NCBI RefSeq assembly: GCF_900104775.1
Contig: NZ_FNSA01000003.1
Coordinates: forward strand, 434,001-498,000
From: Tsukamurella tyrosinosolvens
Lineage (GTDB): Bacteria; Actinomycetota; Actinomycetes; Mycobacteriales; Mycobacteriaceae
Length of the DNA: 64,000 nt
Reading direction: 5' to 3'
This document shows, piece after piece, positions 7,276 to 28,842 of the stretch (position 1 is the stretch's first letter; every line of letters begins with the position of its first letter). Position numbers and translations under genes: made by a program. The notes beneath the pieces are model-generated. The model made no database searches. It was not told the origin of the DNA and saw only the letters and a program-made list of their open reading frames with translations.

Positions 7276-7688
7276 TGCGCGAGGATTCGGGTGTTGCATC
7301 GCCCGGTCGCTCGATCGTCCGCCCGGCCGGTGTGCGCGGACGCCGACTTCCGGGGGAGATCGCCTACGTGGCGTTGCCCGTCGTCGGTGCCGTCGCCGCG
7401 GTCTGCGCGTGGCAGGTCGCGCAACTGGTGGGGCGACGGGTCTGCGGCATGGCCTACGGGGTGGCCGAACGCGTCGGGATGAACGCCCTCGGCGTTCTCT
7501 GGGTCGCCGCGAGCGTCATCCTGATGGCGACGGCCGGGGCCCTTCTTCGCGGTCGCCGGCGCGCGGTCCGAGCCGGAGGCTACGTGGCGCTCGTGATCTT
7601 CGTCGTCGGTACCGTCGCACTTCCACTGCTGGCCACAGGGGTGTGCGAGGGCATTCCCCCGGCGGGGCGCTTCCCGGGCGGCCGCTGA
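7275..7688 (+). CDS. Small membrane protein, unknown function
   Basis: 137 residues with about three hydrophobic helices (around residues 30-48, 70-88 and 101-120) and Arg-rich loops between them. It starts inside the stop codon of the YdcF-like gene, so the two are likely made together. A short Cys/Pro/Gly-rich C-terminus follows the last helix. No family was recognised. The stop is 4 bases from the end of the converging gene at 7693. Confidence 0.65.
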   Translation: MREDSGVASPGRSIVRPAGVRGRRLPGEIAYVALPVVGAVAAVCAWQVAQLVGRRVCGMAYGVAERVGMNALGVLWVAASVILMATAGALLRGRRRAVRAGGYVALVIFVVGTVALPLLATGVCEGIPPAGRFPGGR

Positions 7689-7692
7689 GCGC

Positions 7693-8739
7693 TCACGGCT
7701 GGGTGTCGACCCACTCCAGGTAGGCGCTGCCGGCGACGGGCGTGGAGCGGTACGTCCCGATGTAGGTGTACGCGCCCACGTAGCCGCGGCCGTGTCCGTA
7801 CCGCAGCTCACTGTCGACGGAGCCGTCGATGGTCAGGATCTCGTCGTCGCCGTCGCGGACCGTCCATTTCACGAGGACCGGCACCGTCATCGTGCGCCCC
7901 TGGTCGTCGACGACCTCGCGCGTCTCGACGACGTCCATCCGGACGTCCTCGTAGACCTCCGCGGGCTCGCCGAGGCGCCGCACGTGGGCGAGCCGGCAGG
8001 CGATGCGGCCTCGCGCGCGGACGTCGGTGAGCAGGATCTGCGTGCTGGGGTCGATGTCGATGATCTGATACGTGAAGAAGTCGATGGGCAGCTTGAGTGC
8101 CGCCGGAATCACCTTGCGGGACAGTCCCTGATGGCTGCGGATGCGCGCGTATTCGAAGGTGCCGACGCCCTCGACCCGATCACCGTCGACGGTGCCGGTG
8201 TACGGCGCGGTCAGGCTCAGGTGGTCGTAGATCGGCGTCTTGACGAAGTACGAGACCTGGTCGCTGACCTCGAGTTCGAGGTCCACGTCGAAGCCCGGGT
8301 AGCGGCCGCGCACCGTGACGCGCGGCAGATCCACGTCGATCGCGAGCTCGTCTCCCCAGCGCAGCTCGGAACCGTCGGCGGCGAAACGGCATTCGGTCGA
8401 CGCATCGTAGGCGCGGTAGAAGTGCTGGTCCGCGTACGCGGTGGAGGAGAGCACCGTCGTGGTGTTCCGCGCATCCGCGGCGGACAGGTGGTCCTGATCG
8501 AACAGCTCCGCGCCCGACGCGCCGATCAGCGTCATCGTGTTCACGTACCGGTAGGGCTCCGGCAGGTCGGGGACGAAGACGCCGTAGTGCGTGGTGGACC
8601 AGACCTTCGAGGTGGCGTGCGGCCGCAGCATCTCCGGCTGGTCGAAGGGCCGGCGTGACGCGTCGATCCGGCGGTCCAGGAGGGGCAGTGCACCGTCGAC
8701 GACGGCGCGGGACAGCAGGCTGGAAATCATGTGGCTCAC
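7693..8739 (-). CDS. Conserved protein of unknown function, probably a beta-rich ligand-binding fold
   Basis: 348 residues. The sequence is rich in beta-type segments (RVTVRGRYPGFDVDLELEVS, KVWSTTHYGVFVPDLPEPYR) with many aromatic residues and no membrane helix or signal. The pattern resembles the large two-domain lipocalin-like proteins of mycobacteria, but that is only an impression. The GTG start at 8739 overlaps the TetR stop by 4 bases (GTGA), which I prefer to the internal ATG at 8730. It is third in an operon after a flavin monooxygenase and its regulator, suggesting a role with the same hydrophobic substrate. Confidence 0.65.
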   Translation of the reverse strand: MSHMISSLLSRAVVDGALPLLDRRIDASRRPFDQPEMLRPHATSKVWSTTHYGVFVPDLPEPYRYVNTMTLIGASGAELFDQDHLSAADARNTTTVLSSTAYADQHFYRAYDASTECRFAADGSELRWGDELAIDVDLPRVTVRGRYPGFDVDLELEVSDQVSYFVKTPIYDHLSLTAPYTGTVDGDRVEGVGTFEYARIRSHQGLSRKVIPAALKLPIDFFTYQIIDIDPSTQILLTDVRARGRIACRLAHVRRLGEPAEVYEDVRMDVVETREVVDDQGRTMTVPVLVKWTVRDGDDEILTIDGSVDSELRYGHGRGYVGAYTYIGTYRSTPVAGSAYLEWVDTQP

Positions 8740-22020: not shown

Positions 22021-22500
22021 ATGCCCGTGCTCACCACCGGCGCCGATCGCGAGGCGCTCACCTTCACCCTCGAGGCCGAGTTCGCCGCCTCCCCGGAGCG
22101 CGTCTGGCAGCTGTGGGAGGACCCCCGGCTGCTGGAGAAGTGGTGGGGCCCGCCCGGATGGCCCGCCACCTTCGTCCGCCACGAGCTGCGGCCCGGCGGC
22201 GAGTCCCGCTACTACATGACCGGCCCGGACGGCACCAGGGCCGGCGGCTGGTTCTCGACGGTGTCCACCGACGCCCCGTCGACCTTCACCTTCCGCGACG
22301 GCTTCGCGGGCGAGGACGGCGAGCCCGTCGACCCCGAGGACCACTCCACGACCACGGTCGTCATCACGTCCGACGGCGACGTCACCCACATGACCCTCAC
22401 CGCCACCCACCGATCGCTCGAGCAGCTGGAGCAGGTCCTCGAGATGGGTATGGAGGAGGGCATGACCCAGGCGATGAACCAGATCGACGCCCTGCTGTGA
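22021..22500 (+). CDS. AHSA1/START-domain (SRPBCC) protein
   Basis: 159 residues. It has the AHSA1 pattern: FTLEAEFAASPERVWQLW, LLEKWWGPPGWPATF, and a C-terminal LEMGMEEGMTQAMNQID helix. It probably binds a hydrophobic ligand or assists a client protein; its exact role is unknown. ATG 22021 is preceded by SD GAGGAG at 22007-22012. An ATG at 22006 overlapping the ArsR stop is the alternative. A perfect 20-base-arm hairpin follows. Confidence 0.85.
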   Translation: MPVLTTGADREALTFTLEAEFAASPERVWQLWEDPRLLEKWWGPPGWPATFVRHELRPGGESRYYMTGPDGTRAGGWFSTVSTDAPSTFTFRDGFAGEDGEPVDPEDHSTTTVVITSDGDVTHMTLTATHRSLEQLEQVLEMGMEEGMTQAMNQIDALL

Positions 22501-22562: not shown

Positions 22563-23345
22563 TCACCATCCCCAGAACGTGCGCTGTGCGGCGACGGCCC
22601 AGGAATCGATCCGCTCCACGTCGGCGCGCTCGGGAAGCGTGCAGTCGCCGTCCAGCAGCACCCGGACCGCGGCCTCCAGGCGCGCGATCTCCTCGGAGAC
22701 GTCGTCGCGGGGGATCTCGCCGCGCTTGACGGCAAGTACGTGCTCGCGCTCCGCCTCCGGCATCGGCAGCGTCAGCGTGCCGCGCGCGGCGATCTCGTGC
22801 CCCTGGTACGCGAGTCGCAGCGCGTGGCTGCCGTACTTCACGTCCCAGCCGTAGCGGCTGACCAGTTCCGGCCGGTTCGGCACGCCGCTCGCGCGGCCCA
22901 TCATGCGCTCGTGCTGCGAGTGCATGTAGCCGAGGAACCGTTCCACGGCCCGCCGCGACAGGAATGCCGATCGCATGACCCGCAGCGACCGTCCCAGGTC
23001 GGTCATGGTGATCACGGATTCCTGCGGCGCGTACAGGGGCAGTAGCACCGTGGGGTTCCCCTTGACGGCGAGCCGGAGGTACTTGCGGAGGCCGTACATC
23101 ACGAGGTCGGTGTCGCCGGGGCCGCTGCGGACGCCCTCGGGCTGCGTCCGCCAGATGTAGTCCTCGCGACGCGGTTCCACGCCGAGCAGGTGCTCCGGGG
23201 GCTCGAGGTAGACGCCGAGCTCGTCGTGGTCGTCGGTGCCCGCGATCGCGATGCCGTGCACGCCGGAACCCACGACGGTGCGGAGGATCTCGCCTCGCAC
23301 TGCCGTGTCGCGGTCGCCGTACTCGACGTTCTGCCGATCAGTCAT
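22563..23345 (-). CDS. RlaP-like nucleotidyltransferase (PF10127, polymerase-beta fold)
   Basis: 260 residues. The N-terminal part has the pol-beta pattern GSGVHGIAIAGTDDHDELG (residues about 27-45), with the paired acidic residues expected for metal binding. The family PF10127 is known from RNA-repair gene clusters and is thought to add nucleotides to damaged RNA ends. It is divergent from Hen1 with 83 bases between, and Hen1 is followed by Pnkp, which supports that role strongly. No partner domain is fused. Substrate is inference. Confidence 0.82.
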   Translation of the reverse strand: MTDRQNVEYGDRDTAVRGEILRTVVGSGVHGIAIAGTDDHDELGVYLEPPEHLLGVEPRREDYIWRTQPEGVRSGPGDTDLVMYGLRKYLRLAVKGNPTVLLPLYAPQESVITMTDLGRSLRVMRSAFLSRRAVERFLGYMHSQHERMMGRASGVPNRPELVSRYGWDVKYGSHALRLAYQGHEIAARGTLTLPMPEAEREHVLAVKRGEIPRDDVSEEIARLEAAVRVLLDGDCTLPERADVERIDSWAVAAQRTFWGW

Positions 23346-23428
23346 GGTCGACGACGGTAAGCGCGCCCCGCCGTGCGCTCAATTGAATTTCGGTTGGCGA
23401 CCGATGCGCTCCACTGCAGAATGACGGG

Positions 23429-24823
23429 GTGTATCTGACCGTCTCGACCACGCACGTGCCAGCCACCGACCTGGGCTACCTCCTGCACAAGCACCCCGAC
23501 CGCGTGCAGGAGTTCACCCAGCCCTTCGGCACGGCCACCGTCTTCTACCCGGAGGCGACCGAGACGCGCTGCACCGCGGCGTTGCTGCTGGAAGTCGATC
23601 CGATCGCCCTCGCACGGCGCCGCCGGTCCACCCCCGACTTCGCCCTCGCGCAGTACGTCAACGATCGCCCGTACGCCGCGACGTCGCTCCTCGCGGCGGC
23701 GCTCGCGGACGTGTTCCGCAGCGCGCGGGGCGGCCGCGGCGGCAGCCGCCAGGACGTCGCCGACGGGGCGATCCCGCTGGAGATCGAGATCCCGGTACTG
23801 CCGTGCCGCGGCGGGCCGGACGTGGCCAGGCGGCTCTTCGGCCCGCTCGGCTGGACGGTCCAGACCGATCCGCTCCCGCTCGACGAGGCGATCGCCGAGT
23901 GGGGCGATTCGCGCTACCTGCGCCTCCACCTCGCGGGCGACGTGCGGCTCGCGGACGCTCTCAACCACCTCTACGTGCTGCTGCCGGTGCTCGACGAGTC
24001 GAAGCATTACTGGCAGGGCCCTGACGAGGTGGACAAGCTGCTGCGCTCGGGTGCCGGCTGGCTCGAGACCCACCCGGACCGGGAACTCATCACCCGCCGG
24101 TACCTCGGCCGCGGCCCGGGCCTCGCCGCGCAGGCGCTCGAGCGCCTCGCGGAGGTCGAGGGCCTCCCGCCCGGGGTGCAGGACGACAGTGCCGCCTCCG
24201 CCGACGAGCCGACGAAGCCGCTGAACCTTCTGCGGCACGACGCCGTGCTCGCTGCAGTGGCGGCGAGCGGCGCGGCCTCGGTCATCGACCTCGGCTGTGG
24301 TCCGGGGCAGTTCGTGGGCCGGCTCCTGGCGACGCGGGGGATCGACCGCGTCGCCGGCTGCGACGCCTCGGTCCGGTCGCTGCACCGCGCCGCGCAGCGG
24401 CTGCGCCTCGACGACATGACCGAGCGGCAGCGAAGTCGCATCGACCTGTTCCAGGCCGCCCTCACCTACGAGGACGACCGTCTCGCCGGTTTCGATGCGG
24501 CAGTGCTCATGGAGGTGATCGAGCACGTCGACCCGTCGCGGCTCGGCGCCCTCGAGCACGTCGTCTTCGGGGCCGCGCGCCCGGGCACCGTCGTGGTGAC
24601 GACCCCGAACAGCGAGTACAACGCGCTCTACCTCGAGCTCACCGGGATGCGGCACGCCGATCACCGTTTCGAGTGGGACCGCGCGCAGTTCGCCGCGTGG
24701 GCCGGCGGGGTCGCGACCCGGCACGGCTACGCCGTGCGGCACGAGGGCATCGGCGACAGCGATCCCGAGCGCGGAACCCCCACCCAGATGGCCGTCTTCA
24801 CCCGGAAGGAGTCAGGCCGATGA
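23429..24823 (+). CDS. hen1: 3'-terminal RNA ribose 2'-O-methyltransferase Hen1
   Basis: 464 residues from GTG 23429. The N-terminal domain (about 1-240) is the bacterial Hen1 part that activates the Pnkp ligase. The C-terminal methyltransferase has the SAM motif IDLGCGPGQFVG near residue 288. It also has the metal-binding E-x2-E-H pattern in LMEVIEHVD and the later His of DHRFEW. It methylates the 2'-OH at the end of cleaved RNA before ligation, so the repaired site resists the same nuclease. Its stop overlaps the Pnkp start (ATGA). Confidence 0.93.
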   Translation: MYLTVSTTHVPATDLGYLLHKHPDRVQEFTQPFGTATVFYPEATETRCTAALLLEVDPIALARRRRSTPDFALAQYVNDRPYAATSLLAAALADVFRSARGGRGGSRQDVADGAIPLEIEIPVLPCRGGPDVARRLFGPLGWTVQTDPLPLDEAIAEWGDSRYLRLHLAGDVRLADALNHLYVLLPVLDESKHYWQGPDEVDKLLRSGAGWLETHPDRELITRRYLGRGPGLAAQALERLAEVEGLPPGVQDDSAASADEPTKPLNLLRHDAVLAAVAASGAASVIDLGCGPGQFVGRLLATRGIDRVAGCDASVRSLHRAAQRLRLDDMTERQRSRIDLFQAALTYEDDRLAGFDAAVLMEVIEHVDPSRLGALEHVVFGAARPGTVVVTTPNSEYNALYLELTGMRHADHRFEWDRAQFAAWAGGVATRHGYAVRHEGIGDSDPERGTPTQMAVFTRKESGR

Positions 24824-27315
24824 GCATCGACACCGTCGTCACCGTCCCGATGCGCGGGCTGATCCTCCTGGTCGGCGCCTCGGGCAGCGGCAAGTCGACG
24901 TTCGCGCGCACGCACTTCCGCCCGACCGAGGTCGTCTCCAGCGACGTCTGTCGCGGTCTCGTCGCCGACGACGAGAACGACCAGGCCGCGACGGCCGACG
25001 CTTTCGACCTGCTGCACCACCTGGTGGGCATCCGCCTGCGCCGAGGCCTGCTCACCGTCGTCGACGCGACCAACGTGCAGCGGTCGTCCAGGGCCTCGCT
25101 CGTAGCACTCGCACGCGCCCACGACGTCCTCATCGACGCGATCGTCTTCGATCTCCCCGACGACGTCGCGATCGAGCGGAACCGACTGCGCGCCGATCGC
25201 TCCTTCGGCGCGCAGGTGGTCACGCGTCAGTCGCGGGAGCTGCGCCGCTCCCTGAAGGGGATCAAGAAGGAGGGCTTCCGCCGCGTTCACGTCCTTCGCG
25301 ACACCGCGCAGGTCGACGGTGCCTCGATCGTCCGCGAGCGGCCGTGGAACGACCGGACCGAGCTCACCGGGCCGTTCGACGTGATCGGCGACGTGCACGG
25401 CTGCGCGGCCGAGTTGCGCGCGCTGCTCACGGATCTCGGTTGGAGCGTGCGCGATGACGGTGCGGACCACCCGGACGGGCGGACCGCTGTCTTCGTCGGC
25501 GACCTCGTGGACCGTGGGCCGGACACGCCCGGCGTGCTGCGCCTCGTCATGGGCATGGTGGCCGCGGGGAACGCGCTGTGCGTCAGCGGGAACCACGAGG
25601 CGAAGCTGGTGCGCGCACTCAAGGGCAACCCGGTCACCGTCGCGCACGGGCTGCAGGAGTCGCTCGACCAGCTGGCCGCGGAGTCCGAGGAATTCCGTTC
25701 CGCGGCGCAGGCGTTCATGGACGGGCTGCTCAGTCACTACGTCCTCGACGGCGGGCGGCTCGTCGTCGCCCACGCCGGGCTCAAGGAGGAGTATCACGGC
25801 CGGGCGTCGCGGCGGGTTCGCGCGTTCGCGCTCTACGGCGACACCACAGGCGAGACCGACGAGGTCGGGCTGCCGGTGCGCTACCCGTGGGCGCGGGACT
25901 ACCGCGGTCGCGCGGCCGTGGTCTACGGACACACACCGGTCACCGAGCCGCAGTGGATCAACAACACACTGTGCATCGACACCGGTGCGGTGTTCGGCGG
26001 GGCGCTCACCGCGCTGCGCTACCCGGAGCGCGAGATCGTCTCCGTACCGGCGCGGTCGGAGTGGTACGCGCCGGCGCGGCCGGCGGTGGAGGAACCGTCG
26101 GACGACCGGGCCGCCTCTGTCCTGCGGTACGACGACGTCGCCGGCACCCGCTGGCTGTCCACGCGCACGGCGGGCCGTGTGAAGGTGGAGGGCGACAACG
26201 CGGCGGCGGCGCTCGAGGTGATGAGTCGGTTCGCCGTGGACCCGCGGTGGCTGGTGTACCTGCCGCCCACCATGTCGCCGGCATCGGTGTCGCGGGAGGA
26301 CGGCTACCTCGAGCACCCGTCCCGCGCGTTCGAGGACTTCGCGGGCTGGGGCGTGGAGCGCGTGATCTGCGAGGAGAAGCACATGGGCTCGCGGGCCGTC
26401 GCGGTGATCGCGCGTGATTCCGGCACGGCGGCAAGACGGTTCGGCGTCGCCGACGGTGGCACCGGCACGGTGTACACGCGCACCGGACGGGCGTTCTTCG
26501 ACGACGTCGAGCCGCTGGTGGATCGCCTCCGGCGGGCGGTCGCGCCGCTGTTCGACCGGCTCGAGACGGACTGGCTCGCGCTGGACTGCGAACTGCTGCC
26601 GTGGTCCGCGAAGGCGGGCGAACTGATTCGGTCGCAGTACGCGGCCGTGGGCGCGGCGGCGCGCGAGGTGTTCCCGGCCGCGCTCGCCGGCCTCGACGCG
26701 GCTGCGACGCGCAGCCTCGACGTCGCGGCGCTCCGCGAGCGGACCGCGCGGAGGGCCGTGAACGCGAACGCCTTCCGGGACGCCTACGTCCGGTACTACC
26801 GGCCGACTGACGGGCTCGATGGGGTCACCGTCGCGCCGTTCCAGGTGCTGGCGGCGGAGGGTCGGGTGCTCGCCGAGGAGTCGCACGAGTGGCACATGGA
26901 GCTGCTCGGGGAGCTGGACGACCCGTTCCTGACGCGCACGCGCCACCGCGTCGTCGACCTGGCGTCGGAGGCGGACCGCGCGGAGGCGAGCCGGTGGTGG
27001 ACCGAGCTGACGGACGCCGGTGGAGAGGGCATGGTGGTCAAGCCGCTGGGCGACGCGGGGCGGAAGGTACAGCCGGGCCTGAAGGTCCGTGGCCGCGAGT
27101 ACCTGCGGATCATCTACGGCCCGGACTACCTGGACTCGCTCGACGTGCTGCGCGACCGGAATCTCGGCCGCAAGCGGAAGATGGCGCTCGCGGAGCACGC
27201 TCTGGGCCGCGACGCCCTCGCTGCATTCGTCGCGGGCGAGCCGCTGTGGCGCGTACACCGGTCGGTGTTCGCGGTGCTGGCGCAGGAGTCGGAGCCGGTG
27301 GACCCGCGGCTGTAG
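24820..27315 (+). CDS. pnkp: Polynucleotide kinase-phosphatase-ligase Pnkp
   Basis: 831 residues from ATG 24820, close to the usual length of about 850. The 5'-kinase P-loop is G19-ASGSGK25-ST. The metallophosphatase motifs are GDVHG at 190-194, GDLVDRG at 227-233 and GNHE at 257-260. The nucleotidyltransferase (ligase) domain has K520 in EEKHMGSR. The protein heals 2',3'-phosphate and 5'-OH ends and then, with Hen1, seals the RNA, for example tRNA cut by ribotoxins. A longer open frame to 24673 overlaps Hen1 and is not used. Confidence 0.95.
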   Translation: MSIDTVVTVPMRGLILLVGASGSGKSTFARTHFRPTEVVSSDVCRGLVADDENDQAATADAFDLLHHLVGIRLRRGLLTVVDATNVQRSSRASLVALARAHDVLIDAIVFDLPDDVAIERNRLRADRSFGAQVVTRQSRELRRSLKGIKKEGFRRVHVLRDTAQVDGASIVRERPWNDRTELTGPFDVIGDVHGCAAELRALLTDLGWSVRDDGADHPDGRTAVFVGDLVDRGPDTPGVLRLVMGMVAAGNALCVSGNHEAKLVRALKGNPVTVAHGLQESLDQLAAESEEFRSAAQAFMDGLLSHYVLDGGRLVVAHAGLKEEYHGRASRRVRAFALYGDTTGETDEVGLPVRYPWARDYRGRAAVVYGHTPVTEPQWINNTLCIDTGAVFGGALTALRYPEREIVSVPARSEWYAPARPAVEEPSDDRAASVLRYDDVAGTRWLSTRTAGRVKVEGDNAAAALEVMSRFAVDPRWLVYLPPTMSPASVSREDGYLEHPSRAFEDFAGWGVERVICEEKHMGSRAVAVIARDSGTAARRFGVADGGTGTVYTRTGRAFFDDVEPLVDRLRRAVAPLFDRLETDWLALDCELLPWSAKAGELIRSQYAAVGAAAREVFPAALAGLDAAATRSLDVAALRERTARRAVNANAFRDAYVRYYRPTDGLDGVTVAPFQVLAAEGRVLAEESHEWHMELLGELDDPFLTRTRHRVVDLASEADRAEASRWWTELTDAGGEGMVVKPLGDAGRKVQPGLKVRGREYLRIIYGPDYLDSLDVLRDRNLGRKRKMALAEHALGRDALAAFVAGEPLWRVHRSVFAVLAQESEPVDPRL

Positions 27316-27324
27316 GCGGGCGTG

Positions 27325-27400
27325 CTCGTGACGAATCGGCCGATTTCGCGTCGGCGATCGCCATGAGCGTTCCCGTCGAGGAATCGGCCGGTTTCACGAG
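27325..27400. terminator. Imperfect inverted repeat between converging pnkp and crtI
   Basis: CTCGTGA (27325-27331) pairs with TCACGAG (27394-27400), which includes the crtI stop. Between them are the palindrome AATCGGCCGATT (27334-27345) and the related GAATCGGCCGG. It may act as a two-way terminator. Confidence 0.4.
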
Positions 27401-28842
27401 GAACTGATCGCCTCCGCCGCCAGCCGGCCGGAGATCAATGCCGGTGGCACCCCGACGCCGGGGTGCGTCATCGACCCGGCGAGCACTGCGTTCGCGATGC
27501 CGGGGACGCGCTGCGGGCGGCGGAGCGGCCCGGTCTGGGTGAGCGTGTGCGCCGCGGCGAACGGGGTGCCGGCGGACATGCCCTGCCGGGCCCAGTCGGC
27601 GGGGGTGTCCACCCGCAGGATCTCCGCGGAATCGATGCCGCGGTAGCCGCGTCCCGCCAGCGTCCGCAGCGCGTCGCGCACGTAGTCGCCGCCGATCTCG
27701 TCCCAGTCCAGCGGCGCCGACTCGAGGTTCGGGCAGGGCGCGAGCACGCTCACCGGGCCGGGCTCGCCCGTCGTGACCGACGGCCGGGTGATGAGGAACG
27801 ACGGGTCGCTCATGAGCCGCCCGCGGCCCCGCGTCGCGGTGATCTCCGCGAAGGTCTGCTCCCATGCCGCGCCGAAGTCCAGCGTGTGGTGCGCCTGCGT
27901 CGGCCAGTGGTCCTGCAGGTCCGGATCCACGTCCAGGTGGGCCACCACCGCGGACGGCGACAGCCGCACCCGCCGCGGCGCCCGCCCGCCGAGCGGCGCG
28001 ATGAGCTGGTCGGTGACGGGTGCGTCGGCGGTGAGCACCACCCCGTCGAACGACAGTTGGTGCACGCGCGCCGATGTCCGGGCCCGCAGCCCCGTGACGC
28101 GGCCCCGTCGGCCGTCCAGGCCGATCACCTCGTGCTCGAGGAGGAGTCTGCCCCCGGCCCGCTGCACCTGCCGGGCCATGACGGTGGCGACGTGCCCCAT
28201 CCCGGCCCGCGGGTACCAGACGCCGAGGCCGACATCCATGTGTGAGATCACCGCGTACACCGCCCGCGCCGCCGACGGCGCGACCCCGGCGTACAGCGCC
28301 TGGAAGGTGAGCATGCGGCGGGCGCGCGGATCGTCGACGCGGCGGTCCACCTGGTGCTGCATCGAGCGCAGCGCACCCAGCTTCACCAGCCGCCCGAGGG
28401 CGGCGAGGTCGCGCGGATTCGCGTACGAGCCCCACGCGGCGTCGCCGTCGATGAACCGCTCGTAGGCGGCGTCGAACATCGCCTCCTGCCAGCGCATGTG
28501 TTCGTCCACCAGGAGGTCGTCGGGGACGTGCAGGACGCTCGGCGGTAGTCCGTCGAGTGCGGGGAAGCGGCCCGCGTACGCCGGCGTGACGGGCAACAGG
28601 TCCAGCTCGTCCTCGGCGGCGAGCCGGTCGAGGCCGGCGGCGGCGAGGGCGTTGAAGACGAGCTCCGGCATGGTCAGCACGCTCGCACCCGGATCGACGA
28701 GGTGCCCACGGAGGCGCTCCGTCCCCGCGCGCCCGCCGACCTGCGCCGACCGCTCCACGACGGTGACCTCGTGGCCCGCCCCGAGTAGGTGCAGCGCCGC
28801 CGACAGCCCGGACAGCCCCGCCCCGATGATTCCGATGTGCAC
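27394..28842 (-). CDS. crtI: Phytoene desaturase/dehydrogenase, CrtI type
   Basis: 482 residues. The FAD Rossmann motif is GIIGAGLSGLSAALHLL at residues 4-20, followed by VVERSAQVGGRAGT. The C-terminal FAD signature is GSMTHPGVGVPPALISGRL. It introduces double bonds into phytoene at the membrane. It stands alone, with no lycopene cyclase or GGPP synthase beside it, and crtB is 12 kb away. The upstream gap of 68 bases is shared with the metal ATPase promoter. A related FAD carotenoid or lipid oxidase is the alternative. Confidence 0.85.
   Translation of the reverse strand: MHIGIIGAGLSGLSAALHLLGAGHEVTVVERSAQVGGRAGTERLRGHLVDPGASVLTMPELVFNALAAAGLDRLAAEDELDLLPVTPAYAGRFPALDGLPPSVLHVPDDLLVDEHMRWQEAMFDAAYERFIDGDAAWGSYANPRDLAALGRLVKLGALRSMQHQVDRRVDDPRARRMLTFQALYAGVAPSAARAVYAVISHMDVGLGVWYPRAGMGHVATVMARQVQRAGGRLLLEHEVIGLDGRRGRVTGLRARTSARVHQLSFDGVVLTADAPVTDQLIAPLGGRAPRRVRLSPSAVVAHLDVDPDLQDHWPTQAHHTLDFGAAWEQTFAEITATRGRGRLMSDPSFLITRPSVTTGEPGPVSVLAPCPNLESAPLDWDEIGGDYVRDALRTLAGRGYRGIDSAEILRVDTPADWARQGMSAGTPFAAAHTLTQTGPLRRPQRVPGIANAVLAGSMTHPGVGVPPALISGRLAAEAISSS

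Follow-up and report, generated by a model that had tools for sequence, protein, structure and literature searches.

A Hen1-Pnkp RNA repair cassette of Tsukamurella tyrosinosolvens with RlaP as a predicted and separable partner

A 64,000-nucleotide stretch of the Tsukamurella tyrosinosolvens genome (contig NZ_FNSA01000003.1, positions 434,001 to 498,000; hereafter the window) encodes the RNA repair enzymes Hen1 and Pnkp together with RlaP, a nucleotidyltransferase of the Pol-beta superfamily. The hen1 (23429-24823) and pnkp (24820-27315) genes lie on the forward strand, and rlaP (22563-23345) is transcribed away from them on the reverse strand, across an intergenic region of 83 bp (23346-23428). 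On balance, we favor the view that this is a Hen1-Pnkp cassette with an accessory RlaP, which would rebuild RNA 3′ ends before sealing and would team up with healing and ligase modules that can be exchanged for one another. The Hen1-Pnkp pair itself is an ordinary one, and RlaP is its predicted partner. The comparative evidence presented here strengthens this predicted partnership and, to judge from gene content, recasts a fixed trio as an arrangement with an interchangeable, movable module. RlaP is a separate module that can be lost, kept alone, or found adjoining other healing enzymes.

Burroughs and Aravind (2016), as cited in excerpts of PMC7824862 and PMC6514570, introduced the name RlaP, described its association with RNA ligases, and predicted that it restores lost nucleotides ahead of ligation; their study probably already includes neighborhoods of RlaP with hen1-pnkp. 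In that literature, nucleotide addition to RNA by RlaP is a prediction, and the same excerpts report that RlaP recurs in several RNA repair systems. None of the literature matches listed was a biochemical study of RlaP, in a search that was thin on subscription papers. An earlier annotation of this DNA (the original prediction) had called the system under-described. This description suits the biochemistry of RlaP but not its association with repair genes or its nucleotide-restoring role, both of which were predicted in 2016.

Physical linkage with hen1-pnkp is far above chance for type-B rlaP, the actinobacterial and actinophage subfamily to which the gene in the window belongs (types A, B, and C are manual assignments based on profile span, score, and BLAST identity). 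Of 219 type-B loci confirmed in GTDB genomes, the best 80 were examined, and 13 of these have hen1-pnkp within 8 kb (tblastn). The genes are divergent in three Tsukamurella, an actinomycete metagenome-assembled genome (MAG), and Nocardioides aequoreus; in a Nocardioides MAG they are also divergent, but the gap is 2.3 kb. They are co-directional in Planosporangium (2), Cellulomonas (1), and Glycomyces (3), and hen1-pnkp lies 4 kb off in Gordonia amarae. A whole-genome search of 50 of the 80 genomes recovered Hen1 in 33, with rlaP and hen1 no more than 8 kb apart in 10 of them. Random placement would give about 0.09, making the observed linkage about 100 times chance (G213, whose Hen1 match covers 35 residues only, was excluded). 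Pnkp (12 loci) and Hen1 (11 loci) are also the commonest neighbors within four genes of type-B rlaP at the 77 loci clustered; the gene caller missed rlaP in the other three. The next commonest cluster has six loci, all from Amycolatopsis, and the few clusters that cross families, in 3-5 loci, include a phosphatase and RtcB together with unrelated genes, an aldo-keto reductase among them. On the RlaP tree, linked and unlinked states change at least eight times, with divergent and co-directional as the two main layouts.

The original prediction named as its refutation that RlaP genes lie mostly away from hen1-pnkp in related genomes, and taken literally this is what the counts show. In 67 of the 80 best type-B relatives, hen1-pnkp does not occur within 8 kb of rlaP. 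Among 200 genomes of the order, 51 encode RlaP and 60 encode Hen1, with 34 encoding both. Only five of these 34 carry the two genes within 15 kb on one contig, the others having them on separate contigs or at least 300 kb apart. The five linked genomes comprise the divergent source genome and G030, the co-directional G066, and two with tandem RlaPs behind hen1-pnkp (G035 and G162). G030 holds the only other divergent rlaP-hen1 pair of the survey, and its rlaP (L021, near 1483-2130) has an in-frame stop.

A second line of evidence comes from genus g19 (family f15), in which RlaP and Hen1 co-vary in trans. Of 101 genomes sampled, 41 encode a type-C RlaP and 51 a full-length Hen1; 40 have both, and type C occurs alone in one. 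Full-length Hen1 is thus present in 40 of 41 genomes with type C versus 11 of 60 without it (naive Fisher test, 8.6e-17). These counts treat the Hen1 fragments of G290 and G313 as absences, leave the RlaP fragments of G303, G330, and G313 unlabelled, and place the borderline G292 and G326 with type A. In the 18 genomes with both genes on one contig, type-C rlaP and hen1 are 0.66-0.89 Mb apart (four across contig ends). Shared ancestry was addressed on an rpoB tree, a quick tree of 99 genomes with 32 of 96 branches starred, from which G340 (no rpoB match) and G308 (a stop in the fetched frame) were left out. Across 12 supported independent pairs differing in Hen1, type C differed in the same way in 7.9 on average, in the opposite way in 0, and not at all in 4.1 (median p 0.008). 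Reversing the test gave nine pairs differing in type C, with Hen1 differing the same way in 7.6, the opposite way in 0, and not at all in 1.4 (median p 0.008). Because close linkage cannot explain this co-variation, type-C RlaP and Hen1 probably take part in the same process, in g19 at least. Together with the linkage of type B, this result supports the earlier proposal of a common response for RlaP and Hen1-Pnkp. Type-A RlaP, present in 22 g19 genomes and often in tandem, was also considered as a Hen1 partner and was set aside, as it showed no association with Hen1 on the tree. In one g19 genome (G185, L078, 7193-10679), the genes on either side of the type-C rlaP encode a tRNA_SAD-domain protein and a short-chain dehydrogenase, with a WYL-domain regulator two genes off.

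Within Tsukamurella, the cassette occupies one site, between a gene for a 159-residue protein and a gene for a flavin adenine dinucleotide (FAD)-dependent oxidoreductase. Hen1 was sought throughout each of 16 genomes, and pnkp at the site only. Six genomes carry the divergent trio, two carry rlaP only, one has a degenerate hen1-pnkp without rlaP, one has a Hen1 fragment only (G260, at a contig edge), and six encode neither RlaP nor Hen1 and also lack pnkp at the site. One of the six trios is from an assembly that is 83% complete, and its hen1 changes frame (G258). With contents that vary from the trio to rlaP alone and a degenerate hen1-pnkp, the site is accessory, and each of its modules is lost independently of the other. 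The three genes are therefore not an obligate unit gained and lost together, and the same counts overturn the claim that they form a "strictly paired divergent" arrangement. In the degenerate locus (G256, L248, 8185-10063), an internal deletion has joined the first 201 residues of Hen1 to residues 408-831 of Pnkp, and rlaP is missing.

The two rlaP-only species, T. spumae (G261) and Tsukamurella sp. TY48 (G263), have an intact rlaP, but their genomes encode no Hen1 and the site lacks pnkp. T. spumae retains about 25 of the first bases of hen1 beside the intergenic region, followed by 42 bp resembling the end of pnkp. Because these remnants persist at the site, hen1-pnkp was evidently deleted in T. 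spumae. The intergenic region there is 101 bp long and 92% identical to that of T. pseudospumae. The TY48 site bears no comparable trace of hen1-pnkp, so a deletion is supported for T. spumae only. The ratio of nonsynonymous to synonymous substitution rates (dN/dS) of rlaP is 0.11-0.27 in 27 of 28 Tsukamurella pairs, including 0.11 for T. spumae versus T. pseudospumae; the remaining pair, the source genome versus Tsukamurella sp. PLM1, has too few changes to judge. Thus, rlaP is under purifying selection in Tsukamurella. RtcB is encoded in 12 of the 16 genomes, both rlaP-only species included, and also in genomes without rlaP; it could serve as the ligase in the rlaP-only species. A HAD_PNKP protein, considered as a substitute for Hen1-Pnkp in this genus, is absent from all 16.

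Where hen1-pnkp is lacking, type-B RlaP can adjoin other RNA-end healing genes. Of the 80 type-B genome loci, 21 have a gene of the kinds sought nearby: in 13 it is hen1-pnkp, and in the other eight it is RtcB, a P-loop protein, or a phosphatase of the PNKP type. A PNKP-type HAD phosphatase is directly beside rlaP in five loci. RtcB lies within three genes in three loci (L091, L097, and L154), and a P-loop protein is near in three, its match to AAA_33 being weak and under the Pfam cut-off. Near viral RlaP (the best 80 of 240 confirmed loci), RtcB occurs in five (L163, L181, L202, L205, and L211). In three Streptosporangiaceae loci, the phosphatase gene precedes rlaP, at 7531-7956 and 7956-8756 in L142, 7561-7965 and 7965-8756 in L151 from Streptosporangium saharense, and 7506-7925 and 7959-8762 in L154. 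According to the gene caller, the two genes share one base in L142 and L151 but not in L154; the phosphatase was identified by a PF25109 scan in L154 and by a profile match in the other two. This pair is a possible two-gene 3′-end repair unit. A type-C RlaP gene is likewise followed by a PNKP-type HAD phosphatase in G012.

In the Hen1-Pnkp family scheme, healing by phosphatase and kinase is followed by 2′-O-methylation and then by ligation. The damage to be repaired would begin with a nuclease cutting RNA, probably in the anticodon loop of a tRNA. The Pnkp phosphatase would clear the 3′ end and the Pnkp kinase would phosphorylate the 5′ end. When bases were also removed, RlaP would most likely extend the cleared 3′-OH by one or a few nucleotides, after which Hen1 would 2′-O-methylate the 3′ terminal ribose and the Pnkp ligase would seal the break. 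We infer the RNA substrate, the 3′-OH acceptor, the kind of damage, and the point at which RlaP enters the series of reactions. Hen1-Pnkp seals only what remains, so a tRNA from which the nuclease had removed a base would be dead after ligation alone; RlaP is the predicted answer. The correlation of unlinked RlaP and Hen1 in g19, the phosphatase-rlaP pairs, and the natural Tsukamurella deletion offer systems in which this predicted step can be tested.

A broader version of this idea, which we hold only tentatively, makes RlaP the component that a whole family of systems for repairing RNA ends has in common. A 3′-phosphatase and RlaP would be the minimal unit for rebuilding 3′ ends, plugged into Hen1-Pnkp, into separate polynucleotide kinase-like parts, or into RtcB, either in cis or, with correlated gain and loss, in trans. 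If true, RlaP acts on 3′ ends with or without Hen1, and the survival of rlaP after the deletion of hen1-pnkp in T. spumae is explained.

Several observations weigh against RlaP as an accessory of Hen1-Pnkp. In T. spumae and TY48, rlaP stands alone and its dN/dS is still low, so either RlaP acts without Hen1-Pnkp in these species or the loss is recent. The g19 tree test covers a different RlaP subfamily than the type B of the window, and the raw g19 table for type A is negative (Hen1 in 5 of 22 genomes with type A versus 46 of 79 without). Hen1 is absent from 17 of the 50 type-B genomes searched. No hen1, pnkp, RtcB, HAD_PNKP, or P-loop protein was found in 59 of the 80 type-B stretches, a search in which other ligases would be missed. 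RtcB seals 3′-phosphate ends (excerpts of PMC7824862), so base addition to a 3′-OH does not simply account for the RtcB neighbors. Additionally, two sequence searches for relatives of RlaP with solved structures gave no clear match.

Part of this evidence favors an alternative in which RlaP is a standalone enzyme for general RNA 3′-end tailing or CCA-like maintenance, and its nearness to hen1-pnkp reflects shared defense-type neighborhoods. Such an enzyme could outlive hen1-pnkp in T. spumae, occur without them in TY48 under the same low dN/dS, and do without Hen1 in a third of the type-B genomes searched and without a repair gene of the kinds sought at the majority of type-B loci. Phages point the same way. 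Homologs of RlaP occur in 430 phage records, and the three phage regions examined have no annotated RNA ligase or kinase. However, this alternative leaves the hundredfold excess of linkage and the co-variation with Hen1 in trans without an account, and several of the other neighbors of RlaP are themselves RNA-end healing genes. We therefore consider it rather unlikely, although it is the best placed of the alternatives. The phage homologs belong mostly to Mycobacterium phages (326) and Gordonia phages (52), with examples at MW578836.1 36750-37550 and MK937599.1 40014-41503. Immediately upstream of the RlaP homolog in Gordonia phage Dmitri is a gene for a dATP/dGTP pyrophosphohydrolase domain (PF04447).

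The sequence of RlaP bears on what it might modify. The 260-residue protein matches PF10127 with 98.9 bits against a gathering cut-off of 23, covering profile positions 21-204 of 249, and the phrog_388 nucleotidyltransferase profile with 184.6 bits. It is the only PF10127 match in the 5.28-Mb source genome and is 99% identical to the RlaP of Tsukamurella sp. PLM1. The motifs fall at G26-S27, D39-x-D41, and D80, and in an alignment of 56 sequences G31, D39, D41, and G44 are invariant, with D80 conserved in at least 90%. By these motifs, the catalytic carboxylates of a Pol-beta nucleotidyltransferase are present. The core of this fold is expected to run from a strand through a short helix and the DxD strand to a later strand with an Asp. 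An AlphaFold2 model built from the 56 sequences (mean predicted local distance difference test score, pLDDT, 95.3) has a strand at 19-25, a helix at 27-30, strands at 40-46 (DxD) and 79-85 (Asp), and then a helical C-terminal half; the modeled order of elements fits the Pol-beta nucleotidyltransferase core. RlaP resembles its family in a match above the cut-off and in its association with RNA ligase or end-healing genes, here the divergent hen1-pnkp. It differs in belonging to a divergent subfamily with a changed DxD surround, (T/Q)DD(H/R)DE(L/M)G in place of the SDxDxxG of the seven type-A and type-C sequences compared, and without the Glu that follows NPTVL, or a similar motif, in those seven.

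These changes, and the membership of MNT antitoxins in the same Pol-beta superfamily, would suit an enzyme that nucleotidylates protein. RlaP would then switch repair on or off by AMPylation or oligo-AMPylation of Hen1, Pnkp, or a toxin, as MNT-type antitoxins do. We regard this as improbable. A HEPN domain was not found among representatives of the eight neighbor clusters scanned, a subset of the neighbors, and the PNKP-type phosphatase gene, which overlaps rlaP by one base at two loci, points to RNA ends. Least probable is a toxin-like RlaP that damages tRNA and has Hen1-Pnkp as its counterpart, an idea prompted by the MenT toxins, nucleotidyltransferases that extend tRNA acceptor ends (PMC11541572); since rlaP is intact without Hen1 in two Tsukamurella and has no hen1 or pnkp nearby in any of the 80 viral loci, RlaP needs no antidote of the Hen1-Pnkp type.

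Returning to the accessory role of RlaP, the cassette in the window is otherwise a typical one. The family assignments first proposed for RlaP, Hen1, and Pnkp stand, with profile scores far above the curated or gathering cut-offs. Hen1 (464 residues, GTG start) is an RNA 3′-terminal 2′-O-methyltransferase with a Hen1_L domain at residues 2-241 and the methyltransferase at 281-425, and scores 662.3 bits with TIGR04074 (curated cut-off 340) and 370.5 bits with PF12623. Its motifs D287-L-G-C-G, E362/E365/H366, and H412 are what we take to be the functional residues. Pnkp (831 residues) is a polynucleotide kinase-phosphatase-ligase and scores 1278.8 bits with TIGR04075 (curated cut-off 750), with kinase, phosphatase, and ligase domains at residues 14-145, 185-373, and 463-826 (PF13671, PF00149, and PF16542, the last with 534.6 bits). 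Its motifs lie at the residues originally reported, namely K25, GDVHG at 190-194 (D191/H193), GDLVDRG at 227-233, GNHE at 257-260 (N258/H259), and K520. The gene layout was also described correctly, from the coordinates to the 83-bp gap and the 4-base overlap of hen1 and pnkp (24820-24823), which are on the same strand and by layout form an operon. PADLOC returned a weak methyltransferase match for Hen1 only, with none for RlaP or Pnkp.

Hen1-Pnkp was rightly named as a known RNA repair system. Excerpts of PMC4411300 describe bacterial pnkp and hen1 as always forming one operon, with the complex present in about 250 species. The window matches this system in both genes, all domains, the motifs, and the overlap, and adds a divergent rlaP 83 bp away; those excerpts mention no nucleotide-adding third gene. 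The Pnkp1-Rnl-Hen1 complex (also from excerpts of PMC4411300) shares with the window the logic of healing, methylation, and sealing. However, its kinase-phosphatase and ligase are separate proteins and its hen1 lies far off.

The intergenic region was earlier read as a shared promoter gap. Hexamers can be seen by eye on both sides, yet scanning 23250-23500 for the sigma-70 consensus turned up nothing resembling a promoter, and a divergent promoter is not claimed here. The rlaP-hen1 gap measures 81-83 bp in three other Tsukamurella. One block is partly conserved in the rlaP upstream regions of eight Tsukamurella, and it may be regulatory or due to chance.

The variable site is bounded on one side by the gene for the 159-residue protein (22021-22500, forward strand), which we tentatively label SRPBCC. 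Its ortholog is at the site in 13 of 15 other Tsukamurella and was not seen in G262 or on the short contigs of G260. On the other side is the FAD-dependent amine oxidoreductase (27394-28842, reverse strand; PF01593, 137.1 bits), with an ortholog in all 16 genomes. The source genome also has an RtcB gene (G000:C3:517016-518113), about 19 kb past the end of the window and about 56 kb from pnkp.

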